Positions 1,672 to 58,586 of a DNA stretch of 64,000 nucleotides are shown one piece after another. The stretch lies in the NCBI GenBank assembly GCA_003327435.1, contig QOQV01000004.1, positions 65,037-129,036 on the forward strand, in the 5' to 3' direction. The stretch is from Ignavibacteriota bacterium. GTDB taxonomy: Bacteria > Bacteroidota > Ignavibacteria > UBA10030 > BY39. The position numbers and the translations under genes were made by a program. The notes below the pieces were generated by a model that searched no databases, was not told where the DNA came from, and saw only the letters and a program-made list of their open reading frames with translations. Positions within the stretch are counted from its first letter, which is position 1. Each line of letters opens with the position of its first letter.

Positions 1672-4137
1672 CTACTTCAGTATTAGTAATTTTAGAGTGC
1701 TGCTAGATTCACTTGACTTCAAACGATAGAGATAAATCCCACTTGCAACAGCTTGCCCATTTTCATTTTTACCATCCCAAGTAACTGAATGATAACCAGA
1801 TTCCAATGTACCACTAAAAAGTGTTATTATCTCATTACCTAAAATGTCATATATTTTTAGAACCACTTCCATTCTTTCTGGCAACTCAAAGCTTATCGTT
1901 GTTGTCGGATTAAATGGATTCGGGTAATTCTGATAAAGTACGAATTTTGATGGAACTGGATTTGCTTTCACACCAACAAAATCAGGTGTAACAAATACAA
2001 ATGTATCTTGAGAAACTGTCCATTCAGTTCCATCAGTAACATTTACAAACCATGTATATATGGAATTTTTTATAAACAATTTTTTACCATCAAAATTAAA
2101 GGTCGTATCGTATATATCAGAAATTGTTGTGTCTATGTTTACTCCCTGAATTCGAAGTATATAAAATAGCGTATCTTCATCTACATCATTTGCTGATTGC
2201 CAGACAAATTTGACTGGTTCAGTAACATTTGAAAGCGTATCTCCATTAGCCGGGTGCTCAAGCGAGAAACCACCTGGTGGTGTATTAAACGGAATAACTT
2301 CAACCTGTTCACTTGCTTCGCTATATAAATTTGCAACATCCATAGCTTTAAGTCGATAATAATAAGGTGTTCCGTTTTCTAAATTTCTATCAATGTACAC
2401 CGTATCATTTTTAGAAACGGTTGTTAATAAATTTGTACTATCAGGTGTAAAATTATCTATCAAACTTCTATACAGAATATAATTTGCAATGTCGTGATCT
2501 GGATTTTTAAACCATTTCAATATTGTCTTTCGATTCCTTCCTGTGGCAGTTAATCCACTGGGTTGAGATGGTGGTGTCACATTTGCAATTTCAATAATTG
2601 AATAAAATGGCTTACTCCAATTACCGTTCGATTCAAGGAATCGCATCCCAACCGCGTGCACATCTTCAGTTAGAGATGTTGTTTTCAATGTATCAAAAAC
2701 ATTTTCAATAAACTGGTCAAATGAACCATCGCTTGCTTTAAGTTGAATTCCATTGCTTGCACCAGGGTCAGTATCTACAAAATATTCTGCATTTGTAAGC
2801 CTGGGTGGTAAATGAACAAAAAACGCTGACTCATCTCGAACAACAAATGGTTTTGCTATTGCTTTACCCCAGTTTCCTTCGCTATTCCTAATCCTAACGA
2901 ATAAACTATGCGCTCCTTCATCCATTGTTGATGTGTTCAATGTACCAAGAACATTTTCAAATACTCCGTTAAAATCTCCATCAACTGCATTTAATGCAAC
3001 TCCATTCCCTTCACCAGGGTCAGCATTTACAAAATATTCTGCATTTGTAAGCCTGGGTGGTAAATGAACAAAAAACGCTGACTCATCTCGAACAATAAAT
3101 GGTTTTGCTATTGCTTTACCCCAGTTTCCTTCGCTATTCCTAAACCTAACGAATAAACTATGCGCTCCTTCATCCAATGTTGATGTGTTCAACGTACCAA
3201 GAACATTTTCAAATACTCCGTTAAAATCTCCATCAACTGCATTTAATGCAACTCCATTCCCTTCACCTGGATCAGTATCTACAAAATATTCTGCATTCGT
3301 AATCTTTGGTGGCAAATGAACAAAAAACGCTGACTCATCTCTAACAATAAATGGTTTTGCTATTGCTTTACCCCAGTTTCCTTCGCTATTCCTAATCCTA
3401 ACGAATAAACTATGCGCTCCTTCATCCATTGTTGATGTGTTCAATGTACCAAGAACATTTTCAAATACTCCGTTAAAATCTCCATCAACTGCATTTAATG
3501 CAACTCCATTCCCTTCACCTGGATCAGCATCTATAAAATATTCTGCATTTGTAAGCCCGGGTGGTAAATGAACAAAAAACGCTGACTCATCTCTAACAAT
3601 AAACGGTTTTGCTATTGCTTTACCCCAGTTTCCTTCGCTATTCCTAAACCTAACGAATAAACTATGCGCTCCTTCATCCATTGTTGATGTGTTCAATGTA
3701 CCAAGAACATTTTCAAATACTCCGTTAAAATCTCCATCAACTGCATTTAATGCAACTCCATTCCCTTCACCTGGATCAGCATCTACAAAATATTCTGCAT
3801 TTGTAAGCCTGGGTGGCAAATGAACAAAAAATGCCGACTCATCTCGAACAATAAATGGTTTTGCTAATACATTACCCCAGCTGTTATCTTTGTTCTTCAA
3901 TCTTACATAAAGTGTATGAACACCTTCACTTAATGAAGAAGTTGGAATTGTAATGTTAAATTCTTCAAAAAACTCATTAAAATTACCATCTGAGGATATT
4001 AGCTGAGTTCCGTTACCTAAACCTGGATCTGTATCGATAAAATATTCACCTGCATCAATTGGAGATTGGGCAGAAGCAATTTCCATTAAACCAGCTATAA
4101 ACAGGAATGCAATTAACACTCTAATAACTGTTTTCAT
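1672..4137 (-). CDS. secreted repeat protein with FN3 and type IX sorting domain
   Basis: The protein has 821 residues. A signal peptide (MKTVIRVLIAFLFIAG...ASAQ) is followed by six copies of an 84-residue module (residues ~26-535). Each module starts near AEYFVDxDPGxGNG and ends near FVVRDESAFFVHLPPRL. Copies two to five are almost identical; the first and last are diverged. Next come a fibronectin type III domain (~540-625), an Ig-like segment with FVWQSANDVDEDTLFY, and a type A C-terminal sorting domain from ~730 ([19 protein letters not shown] to the final LKLLILK). By family knowledge the tail directs export and anchoring through the type IX system; the machinery is not in the window. 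A strong ribosome site (AAGGAGAT) precedes the ATG. The modules may mediate adhesion, which is inference. Confidence 0.88.
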   Translation of the reverse strand: MKTVIRVLIAFLFIAGLMEIASAQSPIDAGEYFIDTDPGLGNGTQLISSDGNFNEFFEEFNITIPTSSLSEGVHTLYVRLKNKDNSWGNVLAKPFIVRDESAFFVHLPPRLTNAEYFVDADPGEGNGVALNAVDGDFNGVFENVLGTLNTSTMDEGAHSLFVRFRNSEGNWGKAIAKPFIVRDESAFFVHLPPGLTNAEYFIDADPGEGNGVALNAVDGDFNGVFENVLGTLNTSTMDEGAHSLFVRIRNSEGNWGKAIAKPFIVRDESAFFVHLPPKITNAEYFVDTDPGEGNGVALNAVDGDFNGVFENVLGTLNTSTLDEGAHSLFVRFRNSEGNWGKAIAKPFIVRDESAFFVHLPPRLTNAEYFVNADPGEGNGVALNAVDGDFNGVFENVLGTLNTSTMDEGAHSLFVRIRNSEGNWGKAIAKPFVVRDESAFFVHLPPRLTNAEYFVDTDPGASNGIQLKASDGSFDQFIENVFDTLKTTSLTEDVHAVGMRFLESNGNWSKPFYSIIEIANVTPPSQPSGLTATGRNRKTILKWFKNPDHDIANYILYRSLIDNFTPDSTNLLTTVSKNDTVYIDRNLENGTPYYYRLKAMDVANLYSEASEQVEVIPFNTPPGGFSLEHPANGDTLSNVTEPVKFVWQSANDVDEDTLFYILRIQGVNIDTTISDIYDTTFNFDGKKLFIKNSIYTWFVNVTDGTEWTVSQDTFVFVTPDFVGVKANPVPSKFVLYQNYPNPFNPTTTISFELPERMEVVLKIYDILGNEIITLFSGTLESGYHSVTWDGKNENGQAVASGIYLYRLKSSESSSTLKLLILK
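2796..3803 (-). repeat. four near-identical 252-bp tandem repeats inside the coding sequence
   Basis: The motif gtaagcctgggtgg and its variants recur at 2795, 3047, 3299, 3551 and 3803, exactly 252 bases (84 codons) apart. The four intervening units differ by only a few substitutions each (for example D/N, F/I and M/L codons), while the outer two modules of the protein are strongly diverged. This indicates recent duplication or gene conversion of the inner units. Confidence 0.95.
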
Positions 4138-12814: not shown

Positions 12815-13216
12815 TTACTTTACAATTTGTGCAGAAAGGAGAGTCGACATAACCTGAGGGAGTTCAGTTGAAAGGTTTTTCTTCAATATAAATGCATCAG
12901 CCATAACACGTTTTGCTTCAAGTCGGTATTCGTTTTCATTGTAATTGGTTATAATGATAATCGGAATAAAAGGATATTCTTTCTTAACCATACTAACCAC
13001 CTGAAAACCAGATAATACAGGCATATTAATGTCAAGTATGATAATATCAGGCATTTGGCTAAATGCTAAATCAACTGCCTCTTTGCCATTATTTGTATAT
13101 AATACTTTTGAATTTTTAAACCTACTTTTTATAAAATGAATTATTGTCTGGCTGAAAGATTCATTATCATCAGCTAATAAAATTAAATAATCTGATTTAT
13201 GTAGTGTTTTCTTCAT
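12815..13216 (-). CDS. single-domain response regulator (CheY-like receiver)
   Basis: The protein has 133 residues and is only a receiver domain. Acidic pocket ADD (15-17), phosphorylation site D62 in IILDINMP, the switch threonine in IIITNYN, and lysine in FILKKN. There is no output domain, so it probably acts by protein contact or phosphorelay. It is the last of four receivers in a minus-strand signalling block and lies 28 bases after the preceding one. The hybrid-like PAS kinase at 15524-18673 is the nearest possible partner, by context only. Confidence 0.85.
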   Translation of the reverse strand: MKKTLHKSDYLILLADDNESFSQTIIHFIKSRFKNSKVLYTNNGKEAVDLAFSQMPDIIILDINMPVLSGFQVVSMVKKEYPFIPIIIITNYNENEYRLEAKRVMADAFILKKNLSTELPQVMSTLLSAQIVK

Positions 13217-13244: not shown

Positions 13245-13712
13245 TTATAATTTTGTTTGATTACGGGTAAATTGTTCAATCTGGTTTTTGAGAATAGCTA
13301 ATTCCAGAAGCAAATTATAGTTTTCTCGTTTCAAATGTTGTTTCTCAAGCGTTTTTACACTCATCAATATTAATTGCTCAGGATCAATTGGCTTTTGTAC
13401 AAACACACTTGCCCCACTCAATAACGCATGATTTAATAGTTCCGGATTTCTAAAATCTGTCATAATGATTATCTCCATATCAGGTGATACAGCTTTAATA
13501 TGACTGATTAAAGAAATCTTATCTGACGAGTAGGCTAAAGATAAGTCAATGAGAGCTAAATCTACATTTCTTTCAACTAATGCCTCAAAAATGGAATCAC
13601 AATCTTGTACCCATCCTACATTAAATTTATTTTTTTGAAAAATTGATACAAGAAGTTGTGCAGTATTTTGATCTTCTTCTGCAATAAGTATAGTTTTTAT
13701 ATAATTGTTCAT
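13245..13712 (-). CDS. single-domain response regulator with C-terminal helix
   Basis: The protein has 155 residues. Receiver fold with acidic pair EED (12-14), phospho-site D56 in ALIDLSLA, threonine in IIMTDFRN, and lysine in VFVQKPIDP. A predicted helix (ILMSVKTLEKQHLKRENYNLLLELAILKNQIEQF, shown here only as the segment from residue ~118 to ~150) may form a coiled coil. There is no DNA-binding domain. The gene is preceded by a 417-base untranslated stretch holding a structured RNA with an intrinsic terminator, which may control its expression. Confidence 0.83.
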   Translation of the reverse strand: MNNYIKTILIAEEDQNTAQLLVSIFQKNKFNVGWVQDCDSIFEALVERNVDLALIDLSLAYSSDKISLISHIKAVSPDMEIIIMTDFRNPELLNHALLSGASVFVQKPIDPEQLILMSVKTLEKQHLKRENYNLLLELAILKNQIEQFTRNQTKL

Positions 13713-13818: not shown

Positions 13819-13842
13819 AAAAAAAGCGGGCCGAAGCTCCGC
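13819..13842 (-). terminator. intrinsic terminator with UUCG loop and seven-U tail
   Basis: Minus strand: GCGGAGC, loop UUCG, GCCCGC (six pairs with one bulged A), then UUUUUUU. The left arm is shared with the larger hairpin upstream. The tail direction fixes the transcription direction as minus. Confidence 0.75.
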
Positions 13843-13920
13843 TCTCACGTTAAGGGGGTAGGACCGTAAGAGCGGGCTTCATTTAAAGTATCACGGGAGG
13901 AATGATACTTACCCTGAGAT
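13819..13920 (-). ncRNA. structured leader or sRNA with alternative hairpins
   Basis: Read on the minus strand. First is a 7-bp hairpin (13886-13892 with 13904-13910) with loop AUUCCUCCCGU. Then comes a 16-bp stem with a single bulged A (arms 13865-13880 and 13833-13849, including one G-U pair) and loop GUCCUACCCCCUUAA. Its 3' arm overlaps the 5' arm of an intrinsic terminator at 13819-13842, so long hairpin and terminator are mutually exclusive. GGGUA at 13910-13914 could pair with UACCC in the long loop, a possible pseudoknot. The element may be an attenuator or riboswitch for the receiver gene starting at 13712, or a free sRNA. No known RNA family was recognised. Confidence 0.6.
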
Positions 13921-14129: not shown

Positions 14130-14513
14130 TTAGTTTTTCCTTATCGATTTAAATATCATAGGCATTAATTCCCGCATGATATTTAGCTTACTTATATACC
14201 CATTTAAATTTAATTTCTTAACCATTTCATCTGCATCTGTTATCTCGTTACCTGAGAGTACAATAATTGGAATTAATGGATGCTCTTTACGAATAATTTC
14301 AGATGTCTCAAATCCATTTAAACCTGGCATTACTATATCCATTAAAATAACGTTAGGTAAAAATTTTTTTAATAACTCGATTGCTTCATTACCCGATTTA
14401 GCTGTAAGAACTTCGCCTACTTCGTTTTGTTCTTTCAAAAACTCTGTAATGATTTCTCTAAAGCTTTGAGAGTCATCTACAACTAGTATATTCAATTTCT
14501 CCATATAAATCAT
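14130..14513 (-). CDS. single-domain response regulator (CheY-like receiver)
   Basis: The protein has 127 residues. Receiver with acidic pair DD (13-14), phospho-site D59 in ILMDIVMPGLNG, switch serine in IVLSGNE, lysine in GYISKLN. The ATG at 14513 overlaps the stop of the lipoprotein gene (ATGA). An alternative start is Met4 (MEKLNILVVDD), which is closer to the usual receiver start. No output domain is present. It is co-transcribed with the NarL-type regulator and the PAS kinase, so it likely belongs to the same signalling pathway, which is inference. Confidence 0.87.
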   Translation of the reverse strand: MIYMEKLNILVVDDSQSFREIITEFLKEQNEVGEVLTAKSGNEAIELLKKFLPNVILMDIVMPGLNGFETSEIIRKEHPLIPIIVLSGNEITDADEMVKKLNLNGYISKLNIMRELMPMIFKSIRKN

Positions 14514-57900: not shown

Positions 57901-58362
57901 ATCGAGGTGAGCGAATCATCGCTTGAATTAGTATTTGATAAAATTAAGTGTGAAGTTGATACAAAAAATATCATAATAGATGAAGATTTCTGGAAAATGT
58001 ATGAAGAAGTTAAGGCATCAAAATCAACTTCAAATATTCCAAAATCTGAATTAAGCATAGAAAAGAAAGCACTAAACAATCTTAATTTTTTGTTGAGAGA
58101 TAATTCTAATCAAAAACTTACAGAAGTTAAGAAATTTATACGCACATTACGAGAAGATATTCTTGATTATGGTACATTACCCGATTTTACATTGAGGAGA
58201 ATAGCAAATATTAAATTAAATGGAAATGATTTAAAAGAAGCAATTGATGAAATTAATAAAATTAAAACAGAATTAGGTGAAGATTATCTTGAAAAAGAAA
58301 AGAAAAGGTTGAGTAAAGAAGACAAAGAAATAATTATTGCAATTATGAATAAAAACACTTAG
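54973..58362 (+). CDS. PLD-family nuclease / SNF2-type helicase fusion
   Basis: The protein has 1129 residues. The N-terminal domain has a single PLD motif: H131-S-K133-LYIF and then GSSN (153-156); single-motif enzymes of this family work as dimers. A superfamily 2 helicase follows: Q-motif-like YQLDAVKQAL, Walker A ADVVGLGKT (278-286), DEAH (357-360), LTATPFNN, and motif VI VIQRLGRINRI (~832). The last ~250 residues are charged and uncharacterised. It probably couples DNA translocation to cutting. The next genes, GxxExxY and an Eco57I-class methylase, suggest a restriction or defence system. The stop codon TAG is the first bases of a repeat unit. Confidence 0.88.
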   Translation: MPNFITNSQTKQLKKRLLELISKSNELKFLVGFFYFSGLRELYEGIRGNKNINLKVLVGLNVNREIYGLVEYGEEENLSDDEKISNYLSSLKNSINSDLFDTKEFYEQAKFFIQLIEENKLVIRKTYSPNHSKLYIFKLEEEQIGRNKLFITGSSNLTKAGLTLQNEFNVEISDYGFEEAEKYFDDLWEQAIKITEMDDVKRNLILLLNNETLIKEITPFEAFCLVIKHYIESYKQKDIKNYLLQLLNKHNYKTYQYQLDAVKQALSIIEEHNGVLIADVVGLGKTIIACAVAKHLNKRGVVICPPGLIGDDNKTEGWKKYLDQFELSDWDVRSLGDLEKTLEYVNNKNDIEVIIVDEAHRFRNQDTQGYEYLKNICRNRMVILLTATPFNNKPEDVLSLLNLFITPKKSTITLDNDLIFKFRYLNRLFDNLAYIKKYHNSSDRKKRQRVQTIYKNIFEENEIDLSKVKRKTTTLAKQIRSVIEPVTIRRNRLDLIKNPFYKNEVKELSKVENPIEWFYELTSEQSKFYDEIITKYFADPDDGGKFNGAIYRPFEYEEGIEQNLFDYDKKRDREKNLEYIQQRNLFDIMRRLIVKRFESSFGAFEQSINNFKRITETVVKFIEKTGNDNPLNGEYILDRDLLESIVELDSDEIEKHLVEYEKQIQDGVYPKKHKRYKINKFKNGKEFLQDINSDIKLFDEILEKLNELNLLENDPKTLCLLQNIEKKLAEPQQPDEPKRKIVIFSEYADTVNYVSNKLKQYKPEIFKRTLTITGSLPESKISIISHNFDASSENQANDYDILLSTDKLSEGFNLNRAGMVINYDIPWNPVRVIQRLGRINRISKKVFEKLYIVNFFPTEKGAELVRSREIAQNKMFLIHNTLGEDSKIFDIDEEPSPAKLYNKIMQNPEEIEGESFDTKMFQLYYELKEKYPEIIKKLDKLPKRIKVCKQYPEEELIVFFKKGKLFVKTARKVDNKIEVSESSLELVFDKIKCEVDTKNIIIDEDFWKMYEEVKASKSTSNIPKSELSIEKKALNNLNFLLRDNSNQKLTEVKKFIRTLREDILDYGTLPDFTLRRIANIKLNGNDLKEAIDEINKIKTELGEDYLEKEKKRLSKEDKEIIIAIMNKNT

Positions 58363-58552
58363 CGTCTTTGCGTCTTGGCGAGAAACTTATTTCACGCTAA
58401 GCCGCAAAGTCGCAAAGAAAAAAAAACAGCGTCTTGGCGTCTTAGCGAGAAACAAATATTCCACGCAAAGGTGCAGAGTCGCAAAGAATAAACCCAGCGT
58501 CTTTGCGTCTTAGCGAGAAACTCATTCCACGCAAAGGCGCGAAGTCGCAAAG
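58361..58552 (+). repeat. three tandem copies of a ~57-bp imperfect palindrome
   Basis: Units at 58361-58417, 58428-58486 and 58496-58552 are separated by 9-10 bases. Each starts AGCGTCTTxGCGTCTTxGCG and ends CGCAAAGxxGCxxAGTCGCAAAG (19 or fewer defined bases per arm); the arms are roughly complementary, so each unit can fold as a hairpin. All copies are in one orientation. The remaining bases to 58586 are AT-rich and end at the GxxExxY start. Reading frames across the units are artefacts. Confidence 0.92.
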
Positions 58553-58586
58553 ATAAAATGGCTCGAATATAAGTCAAGTTTGAATT

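Follow-up and report, generated by a model that had tools for sequence, protein, structure and literature searches.

What does the DNA upstream of two receiver genes on the minus strand encode, in a 64,000-nucleotide stretch of an Ignavibacteriota bacterium genome (hereafter the window)? A first-pass annotation of the letters alone had proposed a transcription-attenuation switch at this site, in which a bulged hairpin and an intrinsic terminator compete for one arm at the head of a two-receiver operon. We compared the element in the window genome (G000) with its counterparts in the other genomes of the family (G001–G004), one of which carries two copies (G004a and G004b).

Fold of the element in the window genome

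The minus strand from 13914 to 13819 reads GGGUAAGUAUCAUUCCUCCCGUGAUACUUUAAAUGAAGCCCGCUCUUACGGUCCUACCCCCUUAACGUGAGAGCGGAGCUUCGGCCCGCUUUUUUU, and both proposed hairpins, with one arm in common, are present there (13819–13914). In the 16-bp hairpin, here called P2, the 5' arm GAAGCCCGCUCUUACG (13865–13880) pairs with the 3' arm CGUGAGAGCGG-A-GCUUC (13833–13849), so that 13880–13865 faces 13849–13833 with A13838 bulged; this bulged A is conserved. The arms enclose the C-rich loop GUCCUACCCCCUUAA (13850–13864). The second structure is a cUUCGg-capped hairpin, AGCGGaGC-UUCG-GCCCGCU, followed by U7 (13843–13819), which a simple terminator scan missed, presumably on account of its bulge. P2 and the UUCG-capped hairpin are mutually exclusive because positions 13843–13836 are used by both, and this exclusion is real in G000.

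The annotated match between GGGUA (13914–13910) and UACCC (13860–13856) in the P2 loop was also found as described. The 5' GGGU (13911–13914), probably the 5' end of the RNA, can alternatively pair with the 3' GCCC (13831–13828), forming a helix, P0, that the annotation had not included. A further hairpin, P1, is formed by the 5' arm AAGUAUCAU (13902–13910) and the 3' arm GUGAUACUU (13894–13886) around the anti-Shine-Dalgarno-like loop UCCUCCC (13895–13901). In the MFE fold these helices make a three-way junction, P0-P1-P2, closed by P0, and P0 is paired in the MFE structure of 6/6 copies. Formation of P0 excludes the GGGUA/UACCC pseudoknot. The MFE of a 114-nt piece of the minus strand is −40.1 kcal/mol, compared with −22.1 ± 3.0 kcal/mol for shuffled sequences (z −6.0, 0/200). 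The conserved 5' end lies at 13914, a few bases downstream of the annotated border at 13920.

Distribution and conservation

DNA searches detected the element in all five family genomes searched, which represent three genera, as six copies with 83–97% identity over ~90–100 nt. Its borders (GGGUAAG...CUUCGGCCC) are sharp: DNA matches stop there even in congeneric species. A covariance model of the element, R1, scored the conserved core GGGUAAGUAUCAUUCCUCCCGUGAUACUUUAAAUGAAGCC...GAGCUUCGGCCC (13828–13914, minus strand) at 104–118 bits, and a search of 98 genomes of the order with R1 returned the six family copies only. Among 396 genomes of the phylum, R1 found the window's own copy and one 24-bit match in genome G254 (L064:1510-1577), from another family of the class, which consists of a P1-like hairpin only, AAATATCATTGCTTCCGTGATATTTTAAT. 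A pattern built on this match gave no further credible copy in 391 genomes of the class, and we regard it as probably a chance match. The exact P1 18-mer occurs, among 84,980 species, in family members and two others; both of the latter score at noise level with R1 and were set aside as chance. Viral contigs, phages and plasmids that were searched contained no match to the element. Rfam 15 likewise returned no match at the gathering score, the best weak matches (E ≤ 10) reaching 10.7–14.4 bits, far under the cut-offs, in agreement with the annotation, which had recognised no known class.

Among the syntenic copies the P0-P1-linker segment is identical over 40 nt while the neighbouring proteins are down to 45–67% identity. 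The P2 loop and the tail are also identical, a 16-nt stretch at the P2 loop being unchanged across genera, and the P2 arms, in their variable parts, share ~60% identity. The second copy in G004 (G004b; L007:1501-1600, G004:C135:3733-3832) lies outside this synteny; its P2 loop is changed to GUCCCUUCCCAAAAUAU, still C/U-rich, and its stem is fully compensated. The element is a real, strongly conserved structured RNA restricted, among the genomes searched, to one small family of uncultured bacteria.

Covariation and strand

The structure was tested on six distinct rows from five genomes, in which P0, P1 and P2 were paired in 100% of cells. Compensatory changes on both sides were found at 6 of the 16 pairs of P2, and none of 500 shuffles reached the observed count of covarying cells, in support of the structured RNA annotated on this strand. 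Among the six copies P1 and P0 change too little for covariation to be informative about either helix. P1 is paired in 6/6 copies with a loop that is invariant in all of them and one U-A to U-G change in the 3' arm of G004b, and the 3' strand of P0 is invariant. The helices contain 16 G-U cells and no A-C cells, which identifies the minus strand as the functional RNA; a plus-strand RNA, which would carry a CsrA-like GGA in both loops, is ruled out by the same count. Overall, the stems drift with compensation, and the loops and the junction are fixed.

P2 also contains a mini-ORF at 13880–13848, AUG AAG CCC GCU CUU ACG GUC CUA CCC CCU UAA (MKPALTVLPP*). Leader-peptide attenuation, in which a ribosome stalled at Pro-Pro-stop would open P2, would fit the five syntenic copies, all of which retain the AUG, the frame and CUA-CCC-CCU-UAA; these bases, however, are invariant at the RNA level anyway. 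Moreover, the codons that do change (4 to 6) change nonsynonymously and track stem pairing, the frame is lost in G004b, and no Shine-Dalgarno sequence precedes the AUG. Because the codon changes follow the stem, we rejected this explanation, which we consider highly improbable.

The terminator and the downstream genes in relatives

In the window, the minus-strand gene order is a PAS/GAF histidine kinase, a NarL-type regulator, a small lipoprotein-like protein, the CheY-like receiver RR127 (127 aa, 14130–14513), the element, the stand-alone receiver RR155 (155 aa, Pfam Response_reg, 13245–13712), a second receiver, RR133 (133 aa, 12815–13216), and an aspartokinase. For an attenuation leader of RR155 and RR133, P2 would act as antiterminator against the UUCG-capped terminator, with a ligand, a protein or translation deciding between them. 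The window genome offers good reason for this proposal: both structures are well formed, share one arm and are followed by a U7 tract, and the receivers lie ~107 nt downstream of the element, with similar spacing in G001, G003 and G004a.

The relatives tell otherwise. The annotated register of the terminator is paired in 76% of cells and displays no covariation, whereas P2 is retained throughout; the annotation had named conservation of only one of the two stems as an observation that would refute the switch, and this is largely what the family presents. In G002, G003 and G004a a 3' hairpin forms in another register, GGG(u)CCGA-GCU-UCGGCCC, with energies of −10 to −13.6 kcal/mol. When random P2 stems were joined in simulation to the fixed tail GAGCUUCGGCCCG, they matched the hairpin strength of the five syntenic copies in 5–54% of cases. 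Since random stems yield equally strong hairpins, those of the relatives are within chance. G004b has no 3' terminator-type hairpin. Furthermore, in every copy the P2 state is better by ~16–22 kcal/mol than the best structure formed without the P2 5' arm, and P2 is transcribed before the alternative hairpin. T-rich sequence follows every copy on its 3' side; a clean intrinsic terminator is found in G000 only and is possibly peculiar to that genome.

The downstream genes are no more constant. In 4/5 syntenic loci the element lies 100–140 nt ahead of receiver genes, where a leader role is possible. In G002, however, it is situated between RR127 and the aspartokinase, and neither downstream receiver was found there. 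G004b follows a tRNA-Met gene at a distance of 137 nt, and the next ~500 nt downstream hold no ORF on the same strand; a hairpin followed by a T-run occurs ~140 nt further downstream of this copy. These two contexts indicate that the element is not tied to the receiver pair, and the annotated position at the head of a two-receiver operon does not extend to the family. The RNA resembles transcription-attenuation riboswitches in the mutually exclusive antiterminator and terminator of G000 and in its possible pseudoknot, but differs in that the terminator is unconserved, the downstream gene is not constant and no Rfam class matches. With neither both stems nor the same downstream gene conserved, attenuation of the receiver pair appears rather unlikely. 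A convincing single-genome 'terminator switch' can, as here, vanish upon comparison with relatives.

The upstream genes and the 5' end

RR127 adjoins the element on its upstream side at 5/5 syntenic loci, including that of G002, which lacks the downstream receivers. This constancy makes an origin in the 3'-UTR a serious rival, in which a structured or processed RNA would end, protect or be cut from the transcript of the HK-NarL-lipoprotein-RR127 operon, the genes of which overlap by 4 nt in an operon-like manner. Opposed to it are the location of G004b, past a tRNA gene, and the −10-like hexamers immediately before GGG. Randomly chosen upstream positions give poorer hexamers (P about 0.01, for six AT-rich sequences), which weakly suggests a transcription start at GGG. 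On balance we consider the 3'-UTR origin unlikely. Orthologs of RR127 (E ≤ 1e-20) were found, among 98 genomes of the order, only in the five that bear the RNA.

Alternative pairing of the 5' GGGU(A) and response-regulator binding

Conservation of both partners of GGGU(A) in the five syntenic copies raises the possibility of a riboswitch-like element acting in cis, in which the 5' end exchanges P0 GCCC for UACCC of the P2 loop and controls downstream processing or translation instead of termination. The loop stretch shared unchanged between genera is suggestive of a binding site. On the other hand, these pairs never vary and so provide no covariation, the pseudoknot would carry a U-U mismatch in G004b, and no downstream gene is consistent; we consider control of this kind very unlikely. 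A further proposal, that the same toggle between P0 and the pseudoknot defines a new class of regulatory RNA, with a ligand or one of the receiver proteins from the surrounding two-component locus as the signal, seems to us quite unlikely.

We also considered antitermination at an ANTAR-type site to which a response regulator binds, given tandem hairpins, the second of which overlaps the terminator, in a receiver-rich locus where RR155 has a weak AmiR_N match, under cut-off. ANTAR target RNAs, which share this arrangement among response regulators, consist of two hairpins bearing hexaloops with A1 and G4 (PMC3369931). In contrast, the loops of the element have 7 nt (UCCUCCC) and 15 nt and are not A1/G4 hexaloops (PMC3369931). 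The neighbouring proteins contain no ANTAR domain, and the sole match in the genome is a MurQ-like protein. This scarcely credible candidate was rejected, as its defining features, the hexaloops and an ANTAR protein, are absent.

A candidate free-standing small RNA

The reading that we prefer, at about even chances of being right as judged from sequence comparison, is a family-specific free-standing small RNA of ~92 nt with C-rich loops that is not mainly an attenuator of the receiver pair. Established here, and incorporated in this reading, are the P2 fold, the functional strand, the sequence constraint, the sharply defined borders and the lack of dependence on downstream genes; the reading adds action in trans, which we infer from the anatomy and the independence of context. 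Such an RNA would start at GGG (13914) and end in the U-run at 13825–13819 of the minus strand. It would fold into the three-way junction of P0 (GGGU/GCCC), P1 and the long P2, presenting the UCCUCCC and GUCCUACCCCCUUAA loops. Without the help of Hfq, these loops could pair near start codons, at sites that are G-rich or resemble a Shine-Dalgarno sequence, and the RNA would presumably belong to a two-component locus.

Several observations bear on this small-RNA proposal. In its favour are the fixed loops on varying stems, the −10-like hexamers and the T-rich sequence behind every copy, and a search of the five family genomes for Hfq, with a positive control, that returned nothing. The 16S 3' end in the window genome is GGAUCACCUCCUUUC, and the P1 loop resembles the 16S tail CCUCC. 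Against the proposal, a Shine-Dalgarno core is present in only 6/36 rough ORFs of the window, and the target tests gave no support. Complements of the P1 loop near ATG slightly exceeded the control (33 vs 21), and those of the P2 loop fell below it (17 vs 24). Target searches yielded no conserved target, the single recurring ortholog pair among the candidates being a PHP-domain-like protein confined to genus g1, and operon start regions contained no convincing duplexes with the loops.

The anatomy is that of known C-rich-loop small RNAs, and the element may work as they do; we claim no membership in a named family. The small RNA sX13 does not need Hfq and targets G-rich motifs close to start codons (PMC3771888). 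Like sX13, the element is short and structured, with C-rich loops at the tips of stable stems, and the sX13 loop motif UCCCCCU resembles CCUACCCCCUU of the element; sX13 differs in its three stem-loops and in a 5' region that is unstructured (PMC3771888). The P2 loop motif CCUACCCCC is similar to the sX13 loops. The hallmark of alpha-r14 RNAs is hairpins with variable stems and constant anti-Shine-Dalgarno loops (PMC10746234). In these cuckoo sRNAs, for example NfeR1, the hairpins share the loop motif CCUCCUCCC on differing stems, which is reminiscent of the UCCUCCC loop of P1 and of the differing P2 stems in the element (PMC10746234). However, alpha-r14 RNAs are known from alpha-proteobacteria and have three hairpins with an identical motif (PMC10746234). 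The element matches no Rfam family and has only two hairpins, whose C-rich loops differ; CCUCCUCCC is not repeated in these loops, which hold UCCUCCC and CCUACCCCC.

The RNA is undescribed and strongly constrained, in a lineage without detectable Hfq and with a Shine-Dalgarno core seldom seen in its genes. Should the C-rich loops act as proposed, structure-driven, Hfq-independent loop pairing would extend to this Bacteroidota-related group and be tied to a two-component locus.

Repeats elsewhere in the window

Two tandem arrays lie elsewhere in the window. The first (2749–3880) comprises 4.5 copies of a 252-bp unit that are 95% identical; the unit length is divisible by 3, and the array perhaps encodes a repeat protein. 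The second (58361–58558) contains ~3 copies of a 68-bp unit with inverted GCGTCTTTGCG / CGCAAAGGCGC-like motifs.
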